Source: Methanolacinia paynteri (GTDB lineage: Archaea > Halobacteriota > Methanomicrobia > Methanomicrobiales > Methanomicrobiaceae). Taken from it: a stretch of 64,000 nucleotides of DNA. Position 1 is the first letter of the stretch; each line of letters begins with the position of its first letter. Under the pieces are notes generated by a model. It was not told where the DNA came from. It saw only the letters and a program-made list of their open reading frames with translations, and made no database searches. The translations under genes were made by a program, and so were the position numbers. Of the stretch, positions 1,639-34,290 are shown piece after piece. The stretch is taken from assembly GCF_000784355.1 (NCBI RefSeq), contig NZ_KN360928.1:129820-193819 (forward strand), read 5' to 3'.

Positions 1639-3111
1639 TTAATTTGCCTTCTTTTCATCTTTTTTCCTGTAACCCTCAAGAATAAGTGAATTGATATTTT
1701 TAACGGGTTTATCAGTCGATTCCTGGATATGGAATTCACAGAACGGACAGGATGTTACAACAATGTCGCAGCCGGTCTTCCCGATCTCCTCTCCCCTTTT
1801 CATCCCGAGCGCTTTCGCCTCATCAGGAAGCCCGGATCTCACACCACCCCCCGCACCGCAGCAGATAGACGGCATCTCGACAAATTCTCTCGCGAACATC
1901 CCGATGAGTTCTCTCGGCTCGTCATGTACGCCCTGACCGCGGAGAAGGTGGCAGGGATCATGATATGTTACCCTTACATCAAGTTTTTCCGGGGGCTCGA
2001 TCCCGTATTTGACAAGCAGCTGGTTGATATCAATCACTTCAAACGGTGTGTCATAGTCATTTTTAAGTGTCGATCCACATCCCGCACACATTGTAAGAAC
2101 GGTATCAATGCCCCTTTTGGCAAAGCATACGATATTCGTCTTTTTCAGGTTTTCAAGGATCTGCGTCTGACCGGTCCTGATAAGAGGCGATCCGCAGCAG
2201 ACCTGATCTTTCGGGACAATGACCCTAATGCCGTTTCTTTTAAGAACCTCAATAGTATCGAGACAGGTCTGAACAACTCTCATATTGTACATGCAGCCTA
2301 CAAAGAAGCCTACCTCGCAGCGAACCTCACCATAAGGCTCGATTACCTCAGGAACCATCTCAAGGAAGGTTTCACCTGCCTTCTCGACACTTCTTCCTGT
2401 GGTCCTGACCAATTCTGCAACTGCCTTGTGCCGGTCAAGTGTTAAGCCCTGCCTGTTGGCAAGTTCCCTGAGTTTCTCTATCGCTCTTCCGGGAATAGCT
2501 ATCTTCTTAGGGCAGGCAAGGTAGCAGGCCTGGCAGGAAGTGCATGTGAAAAGCCCTTCATCGACAGCCAGCGGAACCCGGTTCCCTGAACTCCGCGGAT
2601 CAAGTGCAAGCCTCATCTCCTGCCTCATCAGGGTCGGCCCTGCAAAATCCACAACCCTCATCGCGGGACATACCGATACACAGCACAGGCACTCGATGCA
2701 GTCTCTTATCGGTCTTATCCTGTCGATCTCTTCCTTTTCCGGAAGTTCACCGCATCCGCAGGGGACAAGGCCGGGCATCTTTGAAAGCTCGGAGACCAGA
2801 TCGACAGCAAGATCCTTTATGACCGGAAGATCAAGAGGTTCCAGAATCATCCTGTCTTCTGCGATAGTCATGCATGCAAGCTTCGGTTCGCCGTTTATCT
2901 TTATTGCACAGCTCCCGCACTGGCCTGCACCGCAGCAGTACCTGAAAGAGAGAGACGGGTCCAGGTTGTCCCTTACAGCGATCAGTACATCGAGCACCCT
3001 AGCTCCCTCGTTGACCTCAACATTATAATCCTTGTAAGAGGGAGTGATTCCTGAAGAAGGGTCCTGCCTCAGGATCTTTACTTTCAGGCTGACTTTCTTA
3101 ACCGAAGCCAT
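1639..3111 (-). CDS. tfrB: CoM/CoB-dependent fumarate reductase, iron-sulfur/HdrB-like subunit
   Basis: Subunit B (490 residues) of thiol:fumarate reductase, which couples fumarate reduction to oxidation of HS-CoM and HS-CoB to the heterodisulfide in the methanogen cytoplasm. The order of domains is diagnostic. An N-terminal ferredoxin-like domain has the cysteines of a [2Fe-2S] cluster (YCCGAGQCGSC, residues 58-68, and C80). Two [4Fe-4S]-type motifs follow (CIECLCCVSVCP, 138-149; CTSCQACYLACP, 190-201). Two HdrB-like CCG domains complete it (CCG at 305-307 with CAGC 342-345; CCGAGGG at 417-423 with CPFC 455-458). The CCG domains are the site of heterodisulfide chemistry. A plain succinate dehydrogenase B subunit would lack them. 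The gene begins directly after the tfrA stop codon, so the two are co-transcribed. Confidence 0.93.
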   Translation of the reverse strand: MASVKKVSLKVKILRQDPSSGITPSYKDYNVEVNEGARVLDVLIAVRDNLDPSLSFRYCCGAGQCGSCAIKINGEPKLACMTIAEDRMILEPLDLPVIKDLAVDLVSELSKMPGLVPCGCGELPEKEEIDRIRPIRDCIECLCCVSVCPAMRVVDFAGPTLMRQEMRLALDPRSSGNRVPLAVDEGLFTCTSCQACYLACPKKIAIPGRAIEKLRELANRQGLTLDRHKAVAELVRTTGRSVEKAGETFLEMVPEVIEPYGEVRCEVGFFVGCMYNMRVVQTCLDTIEVLKRNGIRVIVPKDQVCCGSPLIRTGQTQILENLKKTNIVCFAKRGIDTVLTMCAGCGSTLKNDYDTPFEVIDINQLLVKYGIEPPEKLDVRVTYHDPCHLLRGQGVHDEPRELIGMFAREFVEMPSICCGAGGGVRSGLPDEAKALGMKRGEEIGKTGCDIVVTSCPFCEFHIQESTDKPVKNINSLILEGYRKKDEKKAN

Positions 3112-7316: not shown

Positions 7317-7792
7317 AGTTTCGGTGATTCCGGTCATTTCTATGGGATATAATCCTACAGAGATTTATAAAAGGGCATAAGCCCCTATCGAACCCCATCA
7401 CAGGTTTGCTTCGCAAACATGTGCAATTATGATACCCCGGCCTCACGGCCGGAAAATGTCATATTCCACGTTACAAGGCGAAAATTTGATGAGCAGGTCC
7501 CTTCATTCTGCTAAGACCAGTATATTTCCTATCGAAATTTTAAAATATATTCTCAACTTGTAATCCCCCGGCCGAGGCTTACCCGGAAGGGTAGCGTCCA
7601 GGCCGGCTATCGCCATAGCGCAAAGCCCTGAGGTCAGGGCGTGTTCACGTAGTGAACTTGCGCAGGGGTTGCCTACCGAAGGGCTGTCGGCCCAATCGAT
7701 TCCTACAGTGACCTTTGATCACCTGTAAAAAAATGAGTCAGGGAAGATGAATGCCTCCCCTCTATTCAAATTCCAGATAAACATTCAAAAAC
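7305..7792. other. non-coding, hairpin-rich stretch between purM and the Vms1-like gene
   Basis: About 490 bases between convergent genes hold no convincing gene. The region carries a series of short perfect inverted repeats with tiny loops: GTTTGC-TTC-GCAAAC (7404-7418), CCGGCC-TCAC-GGCCGG (7437-7452), TACCC-GGAA-GGGTA (7580-7593), CCCTGA-GG-TCAGGG (7626-7639) and GTTCAC-GTA-GTGAAC (7643-7657). Part of it is repeated, inverted, at 33950-34016. This density of stems suggests a structured RNA, a miniature palindromic repeat or its remnants. Confidence 0.7.
7617..7674 (+). repeat. dispersed palindromic element, copy A
   Basis: From AGCGCAAAGCCCTGAGGTC onward this stretch matches, with some gaps, the reverse strand of 33950-34016. 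Shared parts are AGCGCAA(A)GCCCTGAGGTCA followed by GGG, a GTG(T/C)TC segment, a GCGCA(A/G)G block and a final TTGCCT. Both copies contain the perfect palindrome CCCTGAGGTCAGGG and both have a (C)CCGG...CCGG(G) hairpin nearby. Found by eye, so other diverged copies outside this window are likely but unseen. Confidence 0.7.
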
Positions 7793-8755
7793 CTAAAACC
7801 TAAACCAGACGGAAGACCAGATCTCTTTTCGAAGAGCCTCACCACAGTGCCTGTCCGGTTTGATATCGGTAGTTCGTATGATCCTTTCAAGAGGGCAGTC
7901 TGCAGCAATCGCCTCTGCAAGCCGGACATCGCCCATAAGGACAAGGCAATCTGCAATATCCGCATGGGATTCCATCATAGAATCAAACGCAGCTGCGGCC
8001 TTTTCCGCATGATGTCGGATATCCTCCTCCCTGAGCCTCTCGAATCTCTTCTGCGACCACCCGCCCTTCGAATGCTTCTCCTTGACACCCGTTTTTACAA
8101 GTTCGCCTGAGAGAATATTCTTTGCATCGGCAATTCCTATGAAAGACTCTCCCGCATGTGCCAGTACAAAGGCTGCCGCCCGCTCGGAATTCAGGATGGC
8201 TGACAATTCGGCGGTTTCATAGGAATTACCGGATACTGAAAAAGACGATTCAACAGGGAATGGGGGGATAACCGCAAAAACAGGCAATAATTCAGATCCG
8301 CCGCCATGAAAGAGAGCAAATCCCGTATCCCTCTGGTCATCACGAATAACATCAACAATTTCCTGCACCGGCACTTTCGAAAGGACCTCATCATCCCCGG
8401 GAGTACCGTAAACAGACAGAAGATCTCCCTTTTCCGATCGCAGTGAGGACAGAAGGCCTATAAACTCAAGTGATTCCCTCTGTGAGAGCTTAAAACTTTT
8501 AAAAGACGGACCACAGGAGTCATTATTATCGCTCCTGCAGACCTCGAGTTCATGCTCGAGAACACCAATCTTTGTCAGTGCCTTTTTCAGCGACTCTTCG
8601 AGCTCCTGCCTCCTTGCAGGGTCCTCAGACGCCTTTGTTTCCCTCTTTGAAAGCCTTTTGCGGAGACTTTTATTATCCTTCTCGAGATCTCTTATTGTAT
8701 TCAGAAGGCGCTCTTTCTCCTCTTCTGCGCCGCGATTCAAAAATTTATCAAGCAT
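7793..8755 (-). CDS. Vms1/ANKZF1-like (eRF1-fold) peptidyl-tRNA release factor family protein
   Basis: A 320-residue protein. Residues about 10-75 are charged and coiled-coil-like, followed by an eRF1/Vms1-type domain. The key motif is KGGWSQKRFERLREE (about residues 230-244). It matches the GGxSQ.R..R loop of the Vms1/ANKZF1 family, which replaces the GGQ of release factors and cleaves peptidyl-tRNA on stalled 60S/50S subunits in eukaryotic ribosome quality control. That function is inferred by family resemblance. The start is placed at ATG 8755. An in-frame TTG lies two codons upstream. The gene is the last in a run with zpr1 and sepF, 27 bases after zpr1. Confidence 0.75.
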   Translation of the reverse strand: MLDKFLNRGAEEEKERLLNTIRDLEKDNKSLRKRLSKRETKASEDPARRQELEESLKKALTKIGVLEHELEVCRSDNNDSCGPSFKSFKLSQRESLEFIGLLSSLRSEKGDLLSVYGTPGDDEVLSKVPVQEIVDVIRDDQRDTGFALFHGGGSELLPVFAVIPPFPVESSFSVSGNSYETAELSAILNSERAAAFVLAHAGESFIGIADAKNILSGELVKTGVKEKHSKGGWSQKRFERLREEDIRHHAEKAAAAFDSMMESHADIADCLVLMGDVRLAEAIAADCPLERIIRTTDIKPDRHCGEALRKEIWSSVWFRF

Positions 8756-8782
8756 GATCAAAACCGGCCGAAAAAGATGCGA

Positions 8783-33949: not shown

Positions 33950-34016
33950 AGGCAATCCTTGCGCAGTCCGCTCCGCATCCTCTTCGCGAGCACACCCTGA
34001 CCTCAGGGCTTGCGCT
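33950..34016 (-). repeat. dispersed palindromic element, copy B
   Basis: The reverse strand starts AGCGCAAGCCCTGAGGTCAG and ends ATTGCCT, matching 7617-7674 in order, with a longer middle part. The shared palindrome CCCTGAGGTCAGGG is at 33995-34008. The neighbouring CCCGGTCACGAGGCCGGG (34028-34045, reverse strand) parallels the CCGGCC hairpin near copy A. The copy lies roughly 100 bases upstream of the channel gene and in the same orientation as it. Confidence 0.7.
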
Positions 34017-34116
34017 TTCGTGATAAACCCGGCCTCGTGACCGGGAAAAGAACGCGGTTTGAAGATTTATTAATGATTGAATTCCTAAGATCTAAAAATT
34101 CAAGGGACATTCAGGA

Positions 34117-34146
34117 GCAAAAGGGATGCTCGTCCATCCCTTTTGC
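34117..34146. repeat. perfect inverted repeat (12-base stem, 6-base loop)
   Basis: GCAAAAGGGATG and CATCCCTTTTGC are exact reverse complements around the loop CTCGTC. It lies in a gene-free stretch. Possible roles are RNA stem, protein-binding site or terminator. No oligo-T follows directly. Confidence 0.8.
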
Positions 34147-34177
34147 AACCTATCGCCATGAGGGGGAGGGTCAGAGG

Positions 34178-34197
34178 GAGGGGGAGACCTCCCCCTC
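34178..34197. repeat. G-rich perfect inverted repeat (8-base stem, 4-base loop)
   Basis: GAGGGGGA and TCCCCCTC pair exactly around GACC. The plus strand just upstream (34161-34185) has several G runs. Only 31 bases from the previous hairpin, in the same gene-free region. Confidence 0.7.
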
Positions 34198-34290
34198 ACT
34201 CGAATATAACATTCTAAGAAAATATAACTCGCAAAGAAGGAAGATTTTCGAAGCTCATCCTCCTTTCAAAAATCTCCAACCTTCCGAAAA

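Follow-up and report, generated by a model that had tools for sequence, protein, structure and literature searches.

A probable REP/BIME-like composite repeat, rich in hairpins and lying between genes, in Methanolacinia and a few relatives

A 64,000-nucleotide stretch of the Methanolacinia paynteri draft genome (the window) contains two copies of a structured sequence that is, with a probability of roughly 60%, the 3' portion of a larger unit. This unit would be a polar composite repeat with many hairpins, situated between the genes of Methanolacinia and a few relatives and similar to bacterial REP and BIME sequences. The copies are confirmed as a real structured repeat that is present about 20 times per genome in one small group of methane-making archaea. 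Direct support for the composite comes from its copy number, the conservation of its structure, its polarity, its preference for certain gaps between genes, the absence of a copy at a matching site and the occupancy of gaps in opposite orientation in sister species. Against it stand the lack of a linked enzyme (Y1 transposase or reverse transcriptase), the absence of terminal inverted repeats or consistent target duplication, and differences between species that look like deletions.

The initial annotation of the window had placed two inverted cores at 7617 and 33950. Both are present as described, with covariance-model matches at 7608-7673 on the forward strand (copy 1, 88.3 bits) and at 33951-34025 on the reverse strand (copy 2, 74.8 bits), and we refer to them as type I cores. 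Copy 1 starts with the linker TATCGCCATA (7608-7617) and ends with the tail AGGGGTTGCC (7664-7673), and between these are three arms, namely P1 (GCGCAA at 7618-7623 with TTGCGC at 7658-7663), P2 (GCCCTG at 7625-7630 with CAGGGC at 7635-7640) and P3 (GTTCAC at 7643-7648 with GTGAAC at 7652-7657), all on the forward strand. In copy 2, each arm of P1 is one base short and P3 is lengthened, and the two copies match at 87% over 30 nt without gaps. Directly 5' of the copy 1 core lies the long form of a further hairpin, hairpin B (7567-7606, forward strand, CCCGGCCGAGGCTTACCCGGAAGGGTAGCGTCCAGGCCGG), and directly 5' of the copy 2 core lies a short form, read from the sequence at 34028-34045 on the reverse strand (CCCGGTCACGAGGCCGGG), which is also the first hairpin in the computed fold of that locus. 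A second CCGG-type hairpin had been noticed beside the two cores; it is present at both copies, but it is hairpin B and hence belongs to the element. Copy 1 continues on the forward strand into a degenerate tail module C (7674-7723, TACCGAAGGGCTGTCGGCCCAATCG...GACCTTTGATCACC, with a pattern match at 7710-7723). Copy 2 is accompanied by module A at 34104-34202 on the reverse strand (pattern matches; fold z -5.4), in which a G-rich/C-rich part at about 34200-34161 is followed by a ATGGCGATAGGTTGC linker and a hairpin at 34146-34117 (GCAAAAGGGATG-GACGAG-CATCCCTTTTGC).

Beside copy 1, a related element occupies the opposite strand at 7365-7455 (pattern matches; fold z -4.1). It consists of a short hairpin B (7437-7452), then a type II-like core and the tail GGGGCTTATGCCC (7373-7385), and at other loci type II cores ending in this same tail come after hairpin B. 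Copy 1 is flanked by an AIR-synthase-like gene and, convergent with it, a gene with a release-factor domain; the neighbors of copy 2 are a SnoaL-like gene and an ion-channel gene, both on the same strand. The domain encoded by the gene facing copy 1 (7793-8761, reverse strand) is acVLRF1/baeRF-like. A recent duplication as the source of the two copies was rejected, in line with the original suspicion, because each has its own counterpart in Methanolacinia petrolearia; for copy 1 the synteny extends over about 5 kb, and for copy 2 the match is limited to the element and part of one flank.

To count only two copies was an underestimate. The 14-mer CCCTGAGGTCAGGG alone occurs exactly 14 times in the 2.79-Mb draft genome of M. 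paynteri, as opposed to about 0.02 times expected from length alone and zero times for the reversed control, which excludes a chance match. A covariance model (R1) built from the copies of this genome returned 38 matches at E<=0.1 in the same genome, of which 19 were at E<1e-17, giving 19 strong and 2 weaker copies. The total of 21 copies in M. paynteri (G000) compares with 21 in M. petrolearia SEBR 4847 (G111), 12 in the Methanomicrobiaceae metagenome-assembled genome Zod_Metabat.358 (G112), 3 in Methanoplanus limicola (G120), 2 each in G113 and G119, and 1 in G107. These are 7 of the 232 genomes of the order, all belonging to one family, the Methanomicrobiaceae, and the covariance model found no further hosts among 393 genomes sampled from the phylum. 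Viral contigs, phages and plasmids contained no copies, and a viral or plasmid source was rejected on these grounds. A 17-mer was found at 24 loci in the genome collection; the 4 from one Methanomicrobiaceae metagenome-assembled genome carry the element, and 4 inspected of the other 20 are chance matches of the 17-mer alone. The starts of five M. paynteri draft contigs (C4, C27, C32, C35 and C44) coincide with element sites of M. petrolearia. Such contig ends suggest that the repeats may break the assembly, making the copy number in M. paynteri a lower bound.

Alignment of the 14 exact copies defines a core of 63-77 nt with the arrangement TATCGCCATA-GCGCAA-A-GCCCTG-AGGT-CAGGGC-GT-GTTCGC-GAA-GCGAAC-TTGCGC-AAGGGTTGCC, in which the closing arm P1, the arm P2 and the variable arm P3 together form a three-way junction. 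RNAalifold recovered the same junction unaided from the core alignment, as did a fold of copy 1 with DNA parameters (z -4.2). The order of parts first reported from the two window copies, AGCGCAA(A)G, CCCTGAGGTCAGGG, GTG(T/C)TC, GCGCA and TTGCC, is correct. The supposed perfect palindrome CCCTGAGGTCAGGG, which corresponds to P2, is actually an inverted repeat with 6-bp arms on either side of GG; with its flanking bases it reads GCCCTG-AGGT-CAGGGC. The middle, described as differing in length and sequence, does vary in length, but it is a third hairpin, GTTCGC..GCGAAC, whose variation arises from internal duplication of GCGAAG-like units. In an alignment of 60 copies, which was fitted to the covariance model and so leans towards the structure, 97% of cells pair and 5 pairs show double changes (10 cells); the covariation score was reached by 0 of 500 shuffles. 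P1 also shortens in a paired manner, with one base missing on both arms in 10 copies, on neither in 45 and on one only in 5 (Fisher p=1e-7 without correction for shared descent). The element withstood the refuting check set out with the initial annotation, as both further copies and covariation were found. In one copy of the M. paynteri genome (L136:2846-2985), tail C lies inside the core and parts the P2 side from P3, an apparent nested module insertion.

An elaborate conserved fold with covariation could also indicate a transcribed structured RNA family, in which the three-way junction would function as RNA, either in stand-alone small RNAs or within 3'-UTRs. Consistent with this, the modelled strand has more wobble pairs than A-C mismatches, with 26 versus 14 in the core and 7 versus 5 in hairpin B, but the excess in the core is not significant (p=0.08), and hairpins of single-stranded DNA would give the same covariation. 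Moreover, where the element lies between genes in tandem, it is oriented the same way as the genes in 16 cases and the opposite way in 16; such independence of the neighboring genes argues against an mRNA element and is a misfit for one in a 3'-UTR. Rfam recognized only tRNAs in the window, and lax searches of both loci gave only sub-threshold matches, so a tRNA or known RNA family was rejected for want of any match at the gathering cut-off. Taken together, a transcribed RNA appears unlikely, and the support found for the structured nature proposed at the outset does not extend to its being RNA.

The core is one part of a larger unit. Hairpin B, directly upstream of it, has the consensus CCGGCC-GA-GGCTACCC-loop-GGGTAGC-GTCCA-GGCCGG, and its counterpart in Methanoplanus and G113 reads CCTGCT-GA-GAATACCC-loop-GGGTATTC-TTGA-AGCAGG. 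Between the genera, 4 base pairs have changed on both sides and the shape has been kept, indicating that hairpin B and the core behave as one unit that is older than the genus. Of the 52 type I copies of Methanolacinia, 33 are preceded on the same strand by module A, 37 have a type B hairpin and 16 are followed by tail C. The order is fixed as module A, a unique AT-rich spacer, hairpin B, core and the optional tail C, and module A is itself made up of a G-rich/C-rich block, a linker like ATCGCGATAAGTCGC and a hairpin (GCAAAAGGGGATG..CATCCCCTTTTGC). In Methanoplanus, the core is present without module A. The long form of hairpin B was found 29 times in M. paynteri and 36 times in M. petrolearia, with 0 in the controls, and where it is not followed by a type I core, a second core type comes after it that has no P2 hairpin and ends in GGGCTGCCCCGAAGGGGCTTATGCCC. 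M. petrolearia has a larger sister family of this kind (L164-L183), with type II cores after hairpin B (GCGAAAGTTCGC..GCGAACTGAGCA plus GGGCTGCCCCGAAGGGGCTTATGCCC) that are sometimes arranged in tandem arrays with module A (L179, L180).

Local repeats are also seen at individual loci. In Methanoplanus limicola (L125), a minisatellite of the 12-mer TGTTGTATTTGC reaches the element just upstream of the core at 2995-3061 on the reverse strand, and at L126 there is local repeat expansion in the element tail. At 2.104 Mb in M. petrolearia (L097), spacer and hairpin B are duplicated locally over about 100 nt and the core of the second copy is largely lost, which shows an example of array decay.

Module A corresponds to a motif that is already in the literature. 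Chashchina et al. 2021 (PMC8044849) described recurrent potential G-quadruplex sequences (rPQS) in Methanomicrobiaceae, with Methanolacinia among the hosts. These sequences carry a C-rich tract on their 3' side and are all intergenic, about half tail-to-tail, 39% head-to-tail and 11% head-to-head, and without strand preference relative to genes. Module A has the same G-runs followed by a partly complementary C-rich tract between genes and matches the pattern, and the element's gaps are distributed 35 convergent : 32 tandem : 7 divergent, compared with about 50/39/11% in the passages available from that report (PMC8044849). The statement that no named family matches is therefore right for the core, which has no Rfam match, and does not extend to module A, the rPQS motif that precedes most copies, that at 33950 among them. 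The rPQS report covers the PQS and C-rich tract with +/-100 nt of context, and its available passages are silent on module A's second hairpin, on hairpin B, on the type I and II cores and on their fixed order (PMC8044849). Neither the open-access main texts searched nor Rfam yielded an account of hairpin B, of the cores or of the composite. The core, hairpin B and the composite therefore appear to be new, and the front half, module A, was already reported in 2021.

Convergent gaps make up 35 of 74 element-bearing gaps as opposed to 11 of 90 other gaps (p=7e-7), and divergent gaps 7 of 74 as opposed to 31 of 90 (p=2e-4); these counts are approximate, given that genes were called with a greedy ORF method that mislabelled some gaps (copy 1, which is in a convergent gap, was called tandem). 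TTTT within 30 nt downstream was found for 24% of cores. This low proportion indicates that the element is not a typical hairpin-plus-T terminator, which was rejected on this basis and on the 16:16 orientation in tandem gaps. The strong convergent bias would suit static DNA sites with a host role in such gaps, kept by selection and not by mobility, such as bidirectional transcription blocks, replication-transcription insulators or binding sites for a chromosomal protein. Such sites would also account for hairpins that can be used from both strands and for modules that are conserved where the spacer between them is not, and related module A oligonucleotides from Methanomicrobiaceae form triplex/G4 structures in vitro according to the available passages of the rPQS report (PMC8044849). 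On the other hand, many convergent gaps have no element, TTTT downstream is too rare for a typical terminator, and the fast turnover described below is at odds with a fixed site. Selection for a static host function seems to us rather improbable.

The orientation of the element along the M. petrolearia chromosome (G111:C1) is uneven. The 55 merged sites are mostly on the forward strand below about 1.5 Mb and mostly on the reverse strand from 1.5 to 2.35 Mb, a pattern that gave a permutation p of 0.053 in the orientation scan and p=0.015 with a midpoint split that was selected post hoc. GC skew does not clearly match the split. A replication-strand bias is suggestive only.

Comparison of the two sister species reveals both shared and private copies. 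M. paynteri and M. petrolearia share the positions of about ten copies, and at one site common to these genomes and G112, module A, hairpin B and core are kept and the spacer that separates A from B defies alignment. At another site (L136), a 398-bp stretch with a whole copy in M. paynteri is absent from M. petrolearia, with flanks that are 93-95% identical. Furthermore, in five gaps the element of one species points the opposite way to that of the other (L143/L092, L138/L100, L137/L149, L130/L150 and L148/L151). Simple inversion of whole gaps was rejected at these sites where inspected, as the spacers are unrelated and the core types differ at two. The absence of a whole copy and the opposite-orientation occupancy indicate fast turnover, and they bear out the original description of the element as dispersed, as do the about 20 copies per genome. 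Several other differences between the species resemble deletions between modules and not insertions. Orthology was assessed by pairwise comparison, which leaves gain and loss mostly unpolarized, and several M. petrolearia sites that fall at contig ends of the M. paynteri draft were left out. Neither terminal inverted repeats nor a consistent target duplication were seen, with one possible 10-bp direct repeat (AAAATTTAAT) at a single site that is absent in M. petrolearia. The mobility originally proposed is inferred from the site turnover, and no transposase was identified in a search for Y1 enzymes.

The Y1 transposase search (PF01797) gave 0 matches in the three Methanolacinia genomes (G000, G111 and G112) and was positive in 5 relatives and in 5 of the 14 genomes that served as controls. 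Among core-bearing genomes, Y1 transposases occur in G107, G119 and G120, and four IS200-like (Y1) loci fetched from relatives have no core match nearby. The known REP and IS200 machinery is thus not supported, and mobilization by RAYT or IS200 was rejected. One reverse transcriptase is present in M. paynteri and none in M. petrolearia, which has 21 copies, so mobilization by reverse transcriptase was rejected as well. The Y1 genes in some hosts and the subterminal type of the hairpins could be taken to mean that the repeats are now immobile remnants, of MITE or PATE type, derived from the ends of an insertion sequence, IS200/IS605-like or other, that has died out. However, copy number is highest in genomes without a Y1 gene and low in those with one, and neither cores near the IS200-like loci nor terminal inverted repeats were found; such an origin is very improbable.

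With the REP/BIME-like composite as the favored interpretation, the element would be dispersed and non-coding and would fold into single-stranded hairpins. It would be tolerated almost exclusively in gaps between genes, above all in those where the genes converge, with rapid gain and loss. New copies may arise when a single-stranded intermediate is inserted with the help of an enzyme, and the copies would act at the level of DNA, or be selfish, and not act as transcripts. The bias for convergent gaps would then mainly reflect where insertion is least harmful. There is also a slim chance that this archaeal element represents a mobilization system not yet known, spreading as single-stranded hairpin DNA or via RNA and re-occupying the same convergent gaps without HUH-Y1 or a consistent reverse transcriptase.

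Archaeal MITEs and palindrome-associated transposable elements are small non-coding elements in intergenic DNA. The composite differs from their description in that neither terminal inverted repeats nor consistent target duplication were seen, and no parent transposase was found when Y1 genes were sought. It resembles bacterial REP, BIME and REPIN sequences, which are likewise short extragenic palindromes in many copies, forming modular arrays between genes (PMC2817692, PMC3116915, PMC3733652); in both, the conserved feature is a DNA hairpin, and both Methanolacinia genomes with 21 copies display multiple dispersed extragenic palindromes. It differs from RAYT-associated REPs in the absence of a Y1/RAYT gene from Methanolacinia and in being a longer, polar, multi-hairpin unit. 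A GTAG/CGTC tag at the hairpin foot was not seen in the aligned copies, which instead have the conserved bases TATCRC.ATA ahead of the core. According to one survey, Y1 proteins in archaea are of the IS200 subclass only (PMC6006769). The CGTC-type REPs are also a dispersed palindromic family without a dedicated mobilizing enzyme, but they are single hairpins of 8-9 bp with a CGTC tag in bacterial phyla, and their sequence and architecture differ from the composite (PMC3733652). Because it has neither the transposase nor the tag, we file the composite as a REP/BIME-like intergenic repeat outside the RAYT-associated REP family.

REP-like composites that come with a transposase of their own are a feature of bacteria. 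A polar, fast-turning and structure-conserved repeat in a methanogen genus free of Y1 enzymes provides a test case for how palindromes spread without RAYTs. In addition, the published G-quadruplex motif of Methanomicrobiaceae often forms, in Methanolacinia, the front part of a larger element, and its genomic distribution may therefore reflect the spread of that element and not gene regulation.
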